Positions 23,740-28,953 of a stretch of DNA of 45,570 nucleotides are shown piece by piece. The notes under the pieces are model-generated. The model did no database searches and had not been told where the DNA came from. It saw only the letters and a program-made list of their open reading frames with translations. Source of the DNA: Chloroflexota bacterium. GTDB taxonomy: Bacteria > Chloroflexota > Anaerolineae > Aggregatilineales > Phototrophicaceae. The stretch covers positions 1-45,570 of the forward strand of contig JAPOYS010000153.1 in the NCBI GenBank assembly GCA_026706455.1, written 5' to 3'. Numbering within the stretch: position 1 is the first letter of the stretch; each line of letters begins with the position of its first letter. The position numbers and the translations under genes were made by a program.

Positions 23740-24321
23740 ATGGCGGCTGCATTAAAGACAAGGACAATGGTGGCAGAATACCTCGAATTTGATCGTCGGA
23801 GCGACTACAAGAACGAGTACTTTGATGGACAAATCTTCATGATGGCGGGGGCGTCCCCCGATCACAACCTGATACAGACAAGTCTCGTGTCCGCACTTTA
23901 TGCGCGGATACGTGGAAAAGGCTGCACGGTGTATGGTAGCGATATGCGGGTGAAAGTACGAGCGACAGAATCATACGCCTATCCTGACCTTAGCCTTGTT
24001 TGCGGGAGGGCGGTTTATGAATTCAGCCAGCCGGCGACCCTATTGAATCTAAAGATCATTTTTGAAATCCTGTCTCCTTCCTCAGAGCGCAAGGACCGCG
24101 TGACAAAGCTGCGGCATTATCGCGAAATCGAGTCGCTGACGGACTACGTTGTGATTTCGCAATCCGGCTATCATATCCAGCATTATTCCAAAGACGCGGA
24201 CGCTGACTGGCTTGGCATGGAGCTAGTCGGTCCTGGCGCATCTCTGACAATTCGGGACTTGGACTGTCGCATCGGTCTCGTAGAGATTTACGAACAATGC
24301 GAATGGTCAAACGAAACCTAG
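23740..24321 (+). CDS. Uma2 (DUF820) family putative endonuclease
   Basis: A 193-residue protein if it begins at ATG 23740, which has AAAGGGA at proper spacing. A 14-residue longer form from ATG 23698 would be leaderless, since TATACT (23685-23690) ends 7 nt before it. The restriction-endonuclease-like core shows EYLEFDRRSDYKNEYFDGQI, HNLIQTSLVSAL, then YPDLSLVCG and IIFEILSPSSERKDRVTKLRHY, which supply the Asp...Glu-x-x...Lys pattern of PD-(D/E)xK enzymes. Uma2 proteins are very numerous in cyanobacteria and Chloroflexota, and their role is unsettled. The stop codon overlaps the stop of the convergent SEDS-PBP gene within CTAG. Confidence 0.85.
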   Translation: MAAALKTRTMVAEYLEFDRRSDYKNEYFDGQIFMMAGASPDHNLIQTSLVSALYARIRGKGCTVYGSDMRVKVRATESYAYPDLSLVCGRAVYEFSQPATLLNLKIIFEILSPSSERKDRVTKLRHYREIESLTDYVVISQSGYHIQHYSKDADADWLGMELVGPGASLTIRDLDCRIGLVEIYEQCEWSNET

Positions 24322-27050
24322 CGCGGTGAAACCATAGGCGCCTGAATCAGCGCCTGCCCAATCGCAATTAACCTCGGAATATCGTCGCTGTTTTCCAAGA
24401 GGAGGACGAACGCGAAGGAAGTGTCGTTCGGACGGGTCATGAAACCGGTCAGCCAAAGCTGTAATTCGTCTCCCGACCGAGACCTGGCGATTTGCGCGCC
24501 GACATCGCCGGCCGCGGAAACGGGTCCCTCTTGGCGGATGGTCCAGGCCTCCCGCATGATGGTTCGCAGTTTCCGCGCCACATCCGGGCTCAATATCGGC
24601 ACGGCTGTTGTCGCTTCCGTTGCCGACCGCCAGCGCTCGGCGTCCGGCGGTCGATAGCCTGACCAGATGGTAGGGCTTGCCACGCGGCCGTCGCTTGCGA
24701 TAGCCGCCATGATTGACGCCAGATGCAAGGGTGTGGTGGTGATATCGCCTTGGCCGTGCAAGGTCCGCAGCTCGCGTAATTCGAAATCTAGCTCATCGGC
24801 TGCGGGCGCATGCGGGATCTCGATCGGCTCAGCTTGGGGAAAACCGGCCAGCGTGAATGGCTCATCAAATCTGTATGGCGCCAGCGTTGTGTCCAGGCCT
24901 CCGCGCTGATGGGCGAGCCAGTAGGCTTGAAAGGGGGCCGGGCAGCCGTTGCGATAGGCCTCGACAAGCGTGAGTTCGGACGCGTCCGGCTGAGCTAGGC
25001 AAGCTACGGTCATGCCGTCTTCCAGGTCAATGGGCGCGTCAGCATTCGGGAAAGACAGGTCAGGATCGAAGCTTGAGCCCAGCGCCTGCGCCAGCAAAAG
25101 CGTATACATCGCGCCGCCCAACTGGTAATTTCCCTGCAAGGCGCGGTTGAAAAATGGCTGCCCGGCCGCTTTAATCAGCTCGTCCCACTCGGCATCCAAT
25201 GTATTGGGATCGTAGCTGGGCAGACTGACTAAAGCCAAGACTTCGCTCGATTGCGCATCCAAGACGACGGCCGCGCCCGAGGCGTCTTCCATTGCTGAAA
25301 CCAATGCGTCCTGCAAATCCGCGTCGATCGTCAAACGGATATCAGAACCGATTTGGGGCAATTTTAGCACCCGCCGGTTGATGAAGTCGCCTAGCGTCTT
25401 CAACTCGCTGGCGCCCGACAAGAGCTCCTCATAAGCGGACTCAGCGCCGCCTACGCCAAAACGCAAGCTGTAATAGCCGACGATGCCATTTGTGGATGGC
25501 CTCAGATAGCGCCGCTCGGGGCTGGCGCCGCCTATCGTCGTTAGCGCAAGCGGCTGATGGCGTCGGTCATAAATGCCGCCGCGCCGGATGGCAGCCAGGG
25601 CTTCGATCCGTCTCGGATTGTCATCCCGGAGCAGAATCGAATCCCAGCCTGTGATCGCCCAGTATGCCGCCGACAATCCGATCGTCAGCAGGCCCGCGAG
25701 GGCGCCGAGAAACAGCCAATGGACGCCGCGCGCGAATCGCGCCTCGTACGTTCTCGTCAAGCGCGCGGATGCTGAATTGGCGGACAGGCGCAGCAGAATG
25801 CCGGTCATGGTGAAGCAGACGAGCAAGGAGCTGCCGCCGTAACTGATGAAGGGCAGGGTAACGCCGGTCAGGGGCAAGAGCTTGAGGACGCCGCCCATTA
25901 TCTGCAAGGCTTGCGCGACTATCATCATAGTTAATCCGACAGCCAGCATTCTGTGAAAGCCGCGGCCGGATTGGCACAGACCGATCGAAAGCCCGCGATA
26001 GGCAATTAGAGCAAAGCAGCTCAATACGCAGACAACGCCTAGCAGACCCCATTCTTCCGCCAGCGCCGCGAATACAAAGTCGGAATGCGCCAGTGGAATA
26101 TAGGCTGCGGAGCCAAGGCCGACGCCCGCGCCAAATATGCCGCCCGCGCCAAATGCCATGAGGCTTTGCACGATCTGATAGGCGCGCCCGGCGGCTTCGG
26201 GCCAGGGATTCAGCCATATATCCACGCGCAGCTTAACGACGTCAAAAAGGTGATAGGCGACCAAAGCCGCGATCAATACCAGCAGCGCGCCGCCAATCGG
26301 GATTCGCCCGTCGCCGCTGCTCAAATACATGAGCAGGAAGAAGACCACAAAGAAGAGCATGGCTGCGCCAAGATCGCGCTGCCAGACGAGAATCAATAGA
26401 GACAGGAGCCACATGAGCAACATGGGACCCAAGAGTCGTGGCGAAAAACGAAGCCGAAGTCCGGTCTCATTGGCACGGGAGCGGGGCGCCGCGCTGCCTT
26501 CGCTCAGGTAACTGGCCATGAAAGCGACCAAGAGAATCTTCATTATTTCAGAGGGTTGGAAATAGAGGGCGCCAAGGCTGAGCCAAAGGCGCGGCGCATT
26601 GGCGAAACCGGAGGGATTGCTGCCGAAGGCGATGGTGGCCAGCAGAAGCAGCAGCGCGAGCAGCAGGGCGACATAACGATAAACGCGAAGCCAGCGCAGC
26701 GCATACGGGGTAGCAGCCGCGAATAGCAGGGCGGCGACGCTGATTATCAACCACAGGGTTTGACGCTCGGCAAAGGGCGGCGCCAGGCGTTGGATCGCTA
26801 CCAGCCCCCAGCCGCTAAGGAAGATAACCAGCGGGAAGAGCAGCGGATCGCGCGCTGGCAGGCAACGCTTCAAGACAGCTGTGCCAATTAGCGCGCAGGC
26901 CATCCAGGCTGCAAGCGCTATCCACGGGGCGCGCTGCGCTGGGCTAGCCAATTCGATAGCAGCCATTCCAGCGAAGATCGGGGCGGCGGCCAAGATGAGA
27001 AGCAGGTAATGGCGGCGCCCGATTGCGGGCAATGCCGAGTCCAGCCTCAT
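24318..27050 (-). CDS. SEDS glycosyltransferase (RodA/FtsW) fused to a catalytically dead PBP transpeptidase domain
   Basis: A 910-residue fusion. Residues 1 to about 440 are a polytopic SEDS domain, the peptidoglycan polymerase of elongation or division. Its conserved parts are intact: YFQPSEIMKILLVAF, QSLMAFGAGGIFGAG, and AHSDFVFAALAEEWG with Asp324, equivalent to the invariant essential Asp. A linker helix (about 450-475) leads to a class B PBP domain with GGIYDRRHQPLAL and DLQDALVSAMEDASGAAVVLD. The active-site motifs are replaced. SxxK becomes G646-A-M-Y649, SxN becomes Gly-Cys-Pro in YRNGCPAPF, and KTG becomes D849-V-G. The conserved GQGDITTTPLHLA segment remains. Polymerisation is thus likely but crosslinking is not. 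Neighbours are mtnP, fhaB-like and fhaA-like genes. GGCGGCGCGATG at the motif reads cleanly, with no frameshift. Confidence 0.88.
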   Translation of the reverse strand: MRLDSALPAIGRRHYLLLILAAAPIFAGMAAIELASPAQRAPWIALAAWMACALIGTAVLKRCLPARDPLLFPLVIFLSGWGLVAIQRLAPPFAERQTLWLIISVAALLFAAATPYALRWLRVYRYVALLLALLLLLATIAFGSNPSGFANAPRLWLSLGALYFQPSEIMKILLVAFMASYLSEGSAAPRSRANETGLRLRFSPRLLGPMLLMWLLSLLILVWQRDLGAAMLFFVVFFLLMYLSSGDGRIPIGGALLVLIAALVAYHLFDVVKLRVDIWLNPWPEAAGRAYQIVQSLMAFGAGGIFGAGVGLGSAAYIPLAHSDFVFAALAEEWGLLGVVCVLSCFALIAYRGLSIGLCQSGRGFHRMLAVGLTMMIVAQALQIMGGVLKLLPLTGVTLPFISYGGSSLLVCFTMTGILLRLSANSASARLTRTYEARFARGVHWLFLGALAGLLTIGLSAAYWAITGWDSILLRDDNPRRIEALAAIRRGGIYDRRHQPLALTTIGGASPERRYLRPSTNGIVGYYSLRFGVGGAESAYEELLSGASELKTLGDFINRRVLKLPQIGSDIRLTIDADLQDALVSAMEDASGAAVVLDAQSSEVLALVSLPSYDPNTLDAEWDELIKAAGQPFFNRALQGNYQLGGAMYTLLLAQALGSSFDPDLSFPNADAPIDLEDGMTVACLAQPDASELTLVEAYRNGCPAPFQAYWLAHQRGGLDTTLAPYRFDEPFTLAGFPQAEPIEIPHAPAADELDFELRELRTLHGQGDITTTPLHLASIMAAIASDGRVASPTIWSGYRPPDAERWRSATEATTAVPILSPDVARKLRTIMREAWTIRQEGPVSAAGDVGAQIARSRSGDELQLWLTGFMTRPNDTSFAFVLLLENSDDIPRLIAIGQALIQAPMVSPR

Positions 27051-27062
27051 CGTCCGACCGCT

Positions 27063-27941
27063 TTAATTGACATCAAGAGCCAGCGCGCGCGCCAGGATTG
27101 GGCGCAGCTTTTCGATCATGCGCGGGTCCATAGCGGCGCGCTCGGTCGCCAGGGCTGCATCGAGCGCGGTATGCGCTGGCGCAACGTGGTCTTCATCAAG
27201 CTGCGCAATCGCCTCGACCAAAGCCTCTTCCACGATCGCGATATTCTTCTGCAGCGTCTCAATCACCATGTCCGACGTGACGGCTTCTTCCTCTTCATGC
27301 CAGCTGTCGTAATCCGTCACGTGGGCGAGGGACGCGTATTCCATTTCGGCTTCTCGCGCTAGGAAGGCTTCGGGCGCGGCGGTCATGCCGATGAGGTCGC
27401 AGCCCCAGGCGCGGAACAGGACACTCTCGGCGCGCGTGGCGAAGCGCGGCCCGTCTTCAATCAAGAAGATACCGCGGCGATGGACGCGGCCGCCGACCGA
27501 CTCGACGGCAGCGGCAATGATGCCGCGCAGATATTCGCTCATCGGGTCGGCAACGGAGACATGCGCCACGATGCCATCCTCAAAGAATGAGCGCGGGCGT
27601 GTGTATATGGTGTAATCGATGATCTGGTCGGGCGTGACGATATGGCCTGGCGCAATCTGTTCACGCAAGGAGCCAACCGCGTTCACGGCGATGACGAAGC
27701 GGACGCCCAGGGTTTTCAGCGCGTAGATGTTTGCGCGATAAGGCAAGGTAGATGGCGAAAGGACATGCCCCTCGCCGTGCCGCGGCAAGAAGGCGACTCT
27801 TTTCCCGCGCAGGCTGCCGATGCGGATGGCGCCGCTCGGCTTGCCAAAGGGCGTATCGGTGTCGATGGTCTCGACATCGGATATCGCCTCCATATTGTAT
27901 AAGCCCGAGCCGCCAATCACGCCGATTTTTGTCGTTTCCAT
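27063..27941 (-). CDS. mtnP: S-methyl-5'-thioadenosine phosphorylase
   Basis: A 292-residue purine nucleoside phosphorylase-fold enzyme that cleaves methylthioadenosine with phosphate to adenine and methylthioribose-1-phosphate in methionine salvage. The ATG at 27941 follows AAGGAGA by about 7 nt; a longer frame lacks this. Motifs are GVIGGSGLYNMEAI at the N-terminus (phosphate site), FLPRHGEGHVLSPSTLPYRANIYALK (split as FLPRHGEGH and LPYRANIYAL), AVNAVGSLRE, and DLIGMTAAPEAFLAREAEM, which carries the Asn/Met-type base-binding region. The residues GMTAAPEA favour MTA phosphorylase over inosine/guanosine phosphorylase. It lies inside the cell-wall operon between fhaB and the SEDS-PBP fusion gene. 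Its substrate supply may link to the S-adenosylhomocysteinase at 42934-44196. Confidence 0.9.
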   Translation of the reverse strand: METTKIGVIGGSGLYNMEAISDVETIDTDTPFGKPSGAIRIGSLRGKRVAFLPRHGEGHVLSPSTLPYRANIYALKTLGVRFVIAVNAVGSLREQIAPGHIVTPDQIIDYTIYTRPRSFFEDGIVAHVSVADPMSEYLRGIIAAAVESVGGRVHRRGIFLIEDGPRFATRAESVLFRAWGCDLIGMTAAPEAFLAREAEMEYASLAHVTDYDSWHEEEEAVTSDMVIETLQKNIAIVEEALVEAIAQLDEDHVAPAHTALDAALATERAAMDPRMIEKLRPILARALALDVN

Positions 27942-28002
27942 CGTTCGTCTCCTTGTGCTCGCTGAAGTCTTGCTTCCGGGCTTCATCTATTTAGAGGCGG
28001 AT

Positions 28003-28467
28003 TTAGCGCGCTAGCTCGGTCGCTTCCCGCTCCAGCGCCAGGCGGAAGCTGATTGCGCCAATTCCGATGACATCGCCGTCCGCGAGAATCGAGCGCCCCT
28101 CAATCGCCGCCTCATTGAGACGGGTTCCGTTGCGGCTGCGCCGATCTTCCAGCCACCACGTCCCTTGCTCCAGCGTTATGCGCGCATGCTCGGCGCTAGC
28201 GAAGTCGTCGCTGACGACAATCGTGTTGCTGGCCGATCGGCCCAAGGTCGTAATCGGTCGCAATGGATGGTGAGCGACTTCGCCTCCCGGCTCGTCATAG
28301 CCCCCCGACACGCGCGTCAGCCAGCCGTAGGTCTCTGGCGGCGCTTGCAGTTGACGGTCGACCTGGCGCAGCCCGCGCCACACAATCAAGAAGAGCGCCA
28401 GCATAAAAGCTAGCAAGCTCAAGGCCGCCAGTACACGCAGGCTGAAGATGATTAACTCGGCGCTCAC
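28003..28467 (-). CDS. Membrane-anchored FHA protein (FhaB/FipA-like)
   Basis: A 154-residue protein with one N-terminal membrane helix (about residues 8-30, LAALSLLAFMLALFLIVW) and a cytosolic forkhead-associated domain (about 70-145). FHA hallmarks are LGRSASNTIV, then AEHARI and RRSRNGTRLNE, which contain the Gly-Arg, Ser, His and Asn-Gly residues that contact phosphothreonine. Length and layout match mycobacterial FhaB (FipA), which lies beside rodA-pbpA and helps divisome function. It follows the FhaA-like gene by 9 bp. The phosphorylating Ser/Thr kinase is not encoded in this window. Confidence 0.85.
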   Translation of the reverse strand: MSAELIIFSLRVLAALSLLAFMLALFLIVWRGLRQVDRQLQAPPETYGWLTRVSGGYDEPGGEVAHHPLRPITTLGRSASNTIVVSDDFASAEHARITLEQGTWWLEDRRSRNGTRLNEAAIEGRSILADGDVIGIGAISFRLALEREATELAR

Positions 28468-28476
28468 GCTGTCGAC

Positions 28477-28953
28477 CTAGTGCGGCGGCAAGGGCTGAGT
28501 GTCTCCGTCGAGACCGGGCGGCGCCCCTTCTACTGAAATGGCGACCATTCTCTTGGTCGGGTCGCCCGCTGAAGGGCTGTGTTCGGCGCATATTCTGACT
28601 TGTCGCGCAGCCAGAGAATCGTTTGGCAACACATGGATTTCGGGCGCGGAATAAAGTTGCAAGCCCGCTGCCTGACAGAGCTCGGTGACGAGAGATGCCA
28701 GCCGCGCGCTAAGATCTGGCATTTGCTCCCGAAGCTGGCGCTCATTTTGCGGATGCACGTAGATGCGATACCGATCGGGGGCGACGCGAACGGCGCTTGT
28801 TTCGCCAGCCGGATGCGCTCGGTCGTCCAGAGCGCGCAGCAGCAATATGGCGATGTCGCGCGCGCTTGGCTTGCCGCTGAATAACCGGGCGATAGCGCCT
28901 TCTACCAGCGCCTCCAGCCGACCTTCGAGCTTATGTATTGTGTTTGCGCTCAT
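28477..28953 (-). CDS. DUF3662 protein (FhaA N-terminal domain without FHA)
   Basis: A 158-residue protein equivalent to the N-terminal DUF3662 domain of actinobacterial FhaA. Visible features are IHKLEGRLEALVEGAIARLF, SARDIAILLLRALDD, and YRIYVHPQNERQL followed by LASLVTELCQAAGL and VRICAE. Mycobacterial FhaA carries an additional linker and FHA domain; both are missing here, and the frame closes after a short Pro/Gly-rich tail. It is thus a minimal form whose FHA part is supplied by the next gene. The ATG lies only 6 nt after a TATAAT box, so the mRNA is probably leaderless. It is first in the fha-mtnP-SEDS operon. Confidence 0.78.
   Translation of the reverse strand: MSANTIHKLEGRLEALVEGAIARLFSGKPSARDIAILLLRALDDRAHPAGETSAVRVAPDRYRIYVHPQNERQLREQMPDLSARLASLVTELCQAAGLQLYSAPEIHVLPNDSLAARQVRICAEHSPSAGDPTKRMVAISVEGAPPGLDGDTQPLPPH

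Follow-up and report, generated by a model that had tools for sequence, protein, structure and literature searches.

A class B penicillin-binding protein without catalytic motifs, probably kept as the non-catalytic partner of a SEDS polymerase in the Anaerolineae

The window, by which we mean the whole analysed stretch of 45,570 nucleotides (contig JAPOYS010000153.1 of the Chloroflexota bacterium assembly GCA_026706455.1; class Anaerolineae, family Phototrophicaceae), carries a gene for a SEDS polymerase fused to a class B penicillin-binding protein (PBP) of the PbpA type, and the PBP half has lost all three motifs, SxxK, SxN and KTG, that a class B PBP of this type requires. Our results suggest, with a probability of about 0.7, that this dead partner has been kept as a non-catalytic subunit of the SEDS protein and that crosslinking takes place in trans; a wall-crosslinking enzyme has probably turned into an inactive partner, a switch rather than a crosslinker. 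The frame runs without interruption for 910 residues, as the initial annotation had described, and lies on the minus strand at 24318-27050, where the plus strand has many stops. A protein search gave 1526 matches, of which 120, the window's own protein included, were listed and aligned. The parts of the gene are:

24318..27050, minus strand: whole gene, SEDS polymerase fused to a class B PBP predicted to be catalytically dead, 910 amino acids
25773..26777, minus strand: SEDS (RodA/FtsW) domain, residues 92-426 (Pfam PF01098 FTSW_RODA_SPOVE, E 2.2e-73)
26079..26081, minus strand: SEDS catalytic Asp324 in HSDF 322-325, invariant in the 120-row alignment
25731..25772, minus strand: fusion junction, residues 427-440; in 28 genus relatives the same spot has a stop abutting or overlapping a start
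25650..25745, minus strand: predicted membrane helix of the PBP half, residues 436-467
25371..25649, minus strand: anchor and pedestal, residues 468-560 (boundaries our own), about as conserved in dead proteins as in intact relatives
24384..25277, minus strand: transpeptidase-fold domain, residues 592-889, without the catalytic motifs (Pfam PF00905, E 3e-14; fold match to PbpA)
25104..25115, minus strand: former SxxK, GAMY 646-649, by alignment
24939..24947, minus strand: former SxN, GCP 702-704, by alignment
24486..24494, minus strand: former KTG, QIA 853-855 in most alignments (DVG 849-851 in one)
24999..25001, minus strand: Cys684, invariant in the 120 listed rows
24942..24944, minus strand: Cys703, inside the former SxN site, invariant in the 120 listed rows and followed by Pro in 115

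The SEDS half is an intact RodA/FtsW domain, in agreement with what had been annotated: the fusion protein matches PF01098 with 247.8 bits (cut-off 26.4), and the catalytic Asp, invariant in the listed fusions, is also present in 93 of the 94 dead loci and 43 of the 44 others in the survey described below. The PBP half has both the pedestal and the transpeptidase fold of a PbpA-type protein and keeps the conserved segments that were pointed out at first, GGIYDRRHQPL from residue 491 and GQGDITTTPLHLA from residue 766. Several of its residues (W464, R475, R480, R490, R513, E537 and others) are invariant in the 120 fusions listed of the 1526 matches, and structure prediction folds this half confidently despite the motif loss. 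Going by the motifs, lipid II polymerisation is predicted for the SEDS half and no covalent penicillin binding for the PBP half.

At the active site, GAMY for SxxK and GCP for SxN stand where the initial annotation had placed them. For KTG the loss was confirmed and the exact column was not: the alignment to Mycobacterium tuberculosis PbpA and several others lead to Q853-I-A, one alignment leads to the DVG at 849-851 first proposed, and neither of the two candidates at this ambiguous column carries the Lys or the Thr/Ser of the motif. A scan of the whole PBP half found no replacement set of motifs at the active site; its only S..K (548) and S.N (519) sit N-terminal to the transpeptidase domain and its sole [KHR][TS]G is RSG at 858. 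Among the 120 listed matches none has any of the three motifs; most often their places are taken by xxLQ or xxLE, xCP and H(L/W)G. Misalignment was rejected, as the active site of the window protein offers no other motif set and 93 of the 94 dead loci lack an S..K close to where it should lie; that of the remaining locus (L270) looks like a chance match. Assembly error was rejected as well, since it is unlikely to have produced both the open frame and the motif loss when four database proteins (52-88% identity) are also fused and dead.

We then read the PBP encoded next to this SEDS gene in genomes from the genus up through family, order and class to the phylum. Of 138 loci, 94 have lost all three motifs, 43 have all three and one (L153), truncated ahead of the third, has two; mixed states were found at none of them. 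The dead form was seen at 29/29 loci of the window's own genus, 8/8 of the family's other genera and 19/19 of the order's other families. The rest of the class has 37 dead loci in 10 family groups, and 11 intact loci plus the truncated one in 6 other family groups; over the class as a whole, dead pairs occur in 18 family groups. Outside the class, 32 of 33 loci are intact (counting L020, on the same contig as G305). Close homologues with intact motifs were thus sought and not found, either among the listed matches or in the genus. In the family groups f34 (L108, L111, L113, L115, L121, L125, L130, L146, L149) and f11 (L112, L116, L120, L133, L143, L152) the fusions are about 760-935 amino acids long and the SxN segment cannot be aligned, which reads as a further reduction of the transpeptidase half.

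These counts leave out 26 loci, of which 18 had no PBP match in the stretch fetched (5 in the class, 13 in other classes); the others were weak matches (L122, L131, L141, L151, L155), had a gap in the SxxK column (L127, L157) or were frameshifted (L123). L021 and L222 are one locus, counted once. Duplicates (L119, L221, L249) and SEDS genes without a PBP in the stretch (L060, L064) had been set aside earlier, and PBPs not beside a SEDS gene were also set aside (L076, L077, L078 and L159 dead; L160 and L161 intact). For other classes 46 loci were read, a subset of those listed; for the class, reading covered places to about E 1e-67 plus three more loci.

A SEDS protein tree of 158 rows was made with a quick IQ-TREE run; because its long-branch outgroup leaves the root untrusted, only unrooted changes were counted. 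All dead loci except L236 fall into one 95-row clade (SH-aLRT 99), and motif loss thereby extends across a clade, the point that the initial annotation had proposed to check; the clade also holds the intact L134 (family f14), unresolved near its base, and some undetermined rows. The dead or intact state takes two changes on the tree (128 scored rows). The second is L236, from a genome of another class (G265), and an approximately unbiased (AU) test on 70 rows did not reject its grouping with the other dead rows (p 0.3), which is why we speak of one or two losses. The case for an independent second loss in another class appears weak, and one loss plus transfer or contamination would be a possible explanation. 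As read from these sequences, a single motif loss early in class Anaerolineae seems likely, with two as the maximum for the loci read.

Fusion is more labile than motif loss, with at least 12 changes on the same tree. It was found at 33 of the 94 dead loci versus 1 of the 44 others, and the remaining 61 dead loci are split; the view of a "built-in" partner as the central feature is not supported. Fusion as the cause of death was rejected, since most dead loci are split and one fusion has intact motifs. The latter (L258, in G383 of another class of the phylum) is a naturally occurring protein of 967 amino acids in which SEDS and a class B PBP with all three motifs are joined, and it would serve well as a control for the dead fusions. 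The 28 genus relatives noted above have two genes: in 22 (L024-L045) the PBP start follows directly in frame after a SEDS stop (TAG, TAA or TGA), one substitution short of a fusion, and in 6 the genes overlap in another frame. Read-through of the junction stop may possibly occur in the 22. The window's fusion is common to its nearest database relatives P0002 and P0003 and is best read as a loss of the SEDS stop codon; P0004 and P0005 are also fused, are placed elsewhere in the genus tree and may represent separate events.

The dead half is under purifying selection. Within the genus, the median ratio of nonsynonymous to synonymous substitution rates (dN/dS) is 0.31 for the dead PBP half (range 0.21-0.44, 141 pairs) and 0.19 for SEDS (243 pairs), as calculated with our own Nei-Gojobori script on non-independent pairs with dS < 1.5. 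We also took one protein per genus (48 dead, 38 intact) and compared the two kinds at matched SEDS identity and with motif columns removed; the pairs are again non-independent and the region boundaries are our own. In the 0.42-0.48 bin the identity of helix and anchor is 31% in dead and 30% in intact proteins and that of the pedestal 38% in both, whereas the SxN region (22% vs 35%), the GQG region (34% vs 48%) and the KTG strands (27% vs 48%) are relaxed in the dead ones, and the remaining two bins give the same picture. Since helix, anchor and pedestal are held and the cleft is relaxed, selection would seem to have released much of the cleft and kept the polymerase-activating part. This is in line with RodA-PBP2 and FtsW-FtsI, where, according to PMC8078798 and PMC10449877, the anchor/pedestal part is held to activate the polymerase.

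Taken together, the 94 dead loci of 138, the lack of mixed states, the retained fold and the purifying selection strongly support the pseudoenzyme first proposed, and the proposed role as activator or scaffold gains indirect support, as intact relatives conserve helix, anchor and pedestal to the same degree and most active-site regions more strongly. In our model the locus would be the Chloroflexota relative of actinobacterial RodA-PbpA, a third SEDS-class B PBP pair beside RodA/PBP2 and FtsW/FtsI, whose PbpA half lost its motifs early in the class and then persisted as a pseudoenzyme. The SEDS half would polymerise lipid II, and the helix, anchor and pedestal of the dead PBP would dock on it, either switching it on or linking it to regulators. 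The transpeptidase fold would remain as a stiff cap, which a Cys684-Cys703 disulphide may hold together, and the strands would be crosslinked by other PBPs; in the window's lineage, loss of a stop codon would later have joined both genes. The motif loss, its spread over the phylogeny, the predicted fold, the retained polymerase residues, the conservation pattern, the gene order and the presence of PBPs with intact motifs are shown by the data; we infer the lost transpeptidase activity, the polymerase activation, the disulphide, the stop loss as the way to fusion and the identity of the crosslinker.

The best solved relative of the window's PBP half by structure is M. tuberculosis PbpA (PDB 3un7/3upn), which is also the best by sequence for P0002 (88% identical to the window protein); for the window protein itself, Bacillus subtilis PBP3 (7bn9) and M. 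tuberculosis PbpA are about equal by sequence. According to PDB entry titles imipenem, penicillin G and ceftriaxone acylate M. tuberculosis PbpA, whereas the window protein is without the three motifs, and unlike the actinobacterial RodA-PbpA genes those of Chloroflexota are often fused. An engineered Escherichia coli RodA-PBP2 fusion likewise has both modules in one chain and is functional, but it binds fluorescent penicillin and the window fusion has no motifs for this; the same source mentions natural examples of SEDS and PBP in a single open reading frame (PMC10449877). Among the titles and abstract openings listed from the open-licence literature, none dealt with a SEDS partner that is catalytically dead in nature, with these Chloroflexota proteins or with an inactive PbpA.

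That another PBP must crosslink, as first stated, is consistent with the genome, because this keeps PBP2, MecA_N and class A PBPs with intact motifs. There are seven transpeptidase-domain genes, the window's included (PBP names were assigned by similarity and position, class A motifs were read by eye), and intact motifs were found in one PBP2, encoded about 3.5 kb from RodA on the same contig, two MecA_N-type class B PBPs and two class A PBPs. Across the 34 genomes of the genus, PBP2 is intact in 30/30 loci read (SVWK/SCD/KTG), the MecA_N PBPs in 22/22 read out of 66 matches, and MecA_N domains occur in 34/34 genomes, with two copies in 32. In a survey of 199 genomes of the class, MecA_N was found in 39/42 with a dead pair, 6/12 with kept motifs and 63/145 with no or an undetermined pair. 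This association fits B. subtilis, because inactive PBP2B is viable there only with PBP3, a MecA_N PBP; in that work (Sassine et al. 2017, PMC5656894) catalysis by the class B PBP is dispensable and the MecA_N PBP supplies the activity, but the dead PBP2B is an engineered mutant and the dead Chloroflexota form is the natural state of a lineage, in a different paralogue. The best candidates for the crosslinker would be the MecA_N (PBP2a/PBP3-like) class B PBPs or the class A PBPs.

Several observations weigh against a non-catalytic subunit with crosslinking in trans. Three dead-pair genomes of the class (G133, G232, G064) and G265, the sole dead genome outside the class, have no MecA_N match, MecA_N occurs in 13/31 intact genomes of other classes, and its association with the dead pair is confounded by descent. 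Clostridioides difficile PBP3 helps a dead SpoVD without needing its own transpeptidase activity, according to PMC12713402. The region around the former SxxK is barely relaxed (46% in dead vs 48% in intact proteins), which spoils the simple pattern of a free active site and a held anchor. The SxN segment that cannot be aligned in f11 and f34 suggests that much of the transpeptidase fold may be unneeded, and the third pair was not seen in five of the 34 genus genomes (G007, G015, G020, G027, G030), suggesting that it is dispensable in some settings; incompleteness of metagenome-assembled genomes may conceal genes.

Upstream of the fusion lie three further genes:

27063..27986, minus strand: phosphorylase-superfamily gene, a frequent upstream neighbour (Pfam PF01048)
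28003..28467, minus strand: FHA-domain protein (Pfam PF00498)
28477..28953, minus strand: FhaA N-terminal domain protein (Pfam PF12401)

The actinobacterial RodA-PbpA pair sits in an FHA locus, and FHA genes adjoin the Chloroflexota pair too. With enough flank, an FHA gene was found within 2.5 kb upstream at at least 47/90 dead and at least 28/39 other loci (short flanks make these lower bounds), and the phosphorylase-superfamily gene within 500 bp upstream of the SEDS gene at 71/90 dead and 12/39 other loci. The latter is more frequent at dead loci.

Such a neighbourhood, together with the retained transpeptidase fold, the still conserved surroundings of the former SxxK and the His that fills the KTG Lys column in 73/120 listed fusions, could point to a sensor domain that binds stem peptides, muropeptides or beta-lactams and controls the polymerase accordingly, possibly below Ser/Thr kinase-FHA signalling. 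We regard this as rather unlikely, as conservation is lowest in the SxN and KTG regions, which line the cleft, and a Pfam scan of the ten neighbouring open reading frames found no kinase domain. There is a smaller chance still that the PBP half is a functionless, decaying relic, with selection on the polymerase only. Its relaxed SxN, GQG and KTG regions, its higher dN/dS than that of SEDS, the SxN segment of f11 and f34 and the five genus genomes in which the pair is missing would all suit decay, but after only one or two losses the open frame and the confident predicted fold have lasted over 18 family groups, the helix, anchor and pedestal show no less conservation than in intact relatives and many residues are invariant in the listed fusions. 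New catalytic chemistry in place of the serine, for instance through the invariant Cys703 with its following Pro, is very improbable, and Cys703 as nucleophile was rejected, as 17 of the 94 dead loci carry neither Cys684 nor Cys703 (76 both, 1 just one), both also occur in 14 of the 44 loci with kept motifs, though 13 of these 44 have a single one, and aligned M. tuberculosis PbpA has Cys at both places, which makes a structural pair the simpler reading. A Cys684-Cys703 disulphide that splints the emptied site is possible.

A second, predicted inactivation concerns the septal FtsI of the genus. In the window's own genome FtsI (L162, C160:18528-20273), on the contig of the second SEDS gene, reads SILQ/SLN/KPG, and across the genus (L162, L192-L220, L271-L274) the Lys of SxxK is lost in 33 of 34 genomes (31 Gln, 2 Leu), the same 33 having also lost the Thr of KTG. 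The only intact genus FtsI is that of G033, the most divergent member by FtsI. Outside the genus, FtsI was read in 72 of 79 genomes; 70 of 71 readable ones are intact (SxD counted as intact) and one further locus is truncated. The exception, L275 (G096) in another family of the class, is an FtsI that has lost all three motifs (ATQM/SRI/FSS), and that of G128 from the same family is intact. The SxxK lysine is the general base, and its loss should therefore abolish acylation of FtsI. The genus FtsI is nevertheless strongly kept, given a median dN/dS of 0.11 (30 loci, computed over members other than G033). G033 and G014 are the only genus genomes with a single MecA_N PBP instead of two; that G033 combines this with an intact FtsI is a hint from one case. 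Two of three SEDS partners would then be dead in the genus, and crosslinking at the septum would fall to MecA_N-type or class A PBPs. We tentatively suggest, at somewhat less than even odds, that SEDS activation was split from crosslinking across most of the class, the partner PBP becoming a permanent non-catalytic subunit, and that the genus FtsI followed. If true, nature would have repeated the B. subtilis PBP2B/PBP3 experiment, and the divisome might be beyond beta-lactam attack at FtsI.

Some of these proteins are filed in the databases under labels like "cell division protein FtsW/FtsI/penicillin-binding protein", although their motifs predict no penicillin binding. Whether a SEDS partner PBP acts as activator or crosslinker has so far been argued from engineered mutants and inhibitors. 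Evolution would seem to have run the same experiment over much of a class, where the motifs went and anchor and pedestal stayed, and the dead proteins with their intact sister lineages offer a set in which to look for the minimal activating surface and for crosslinking in trans.
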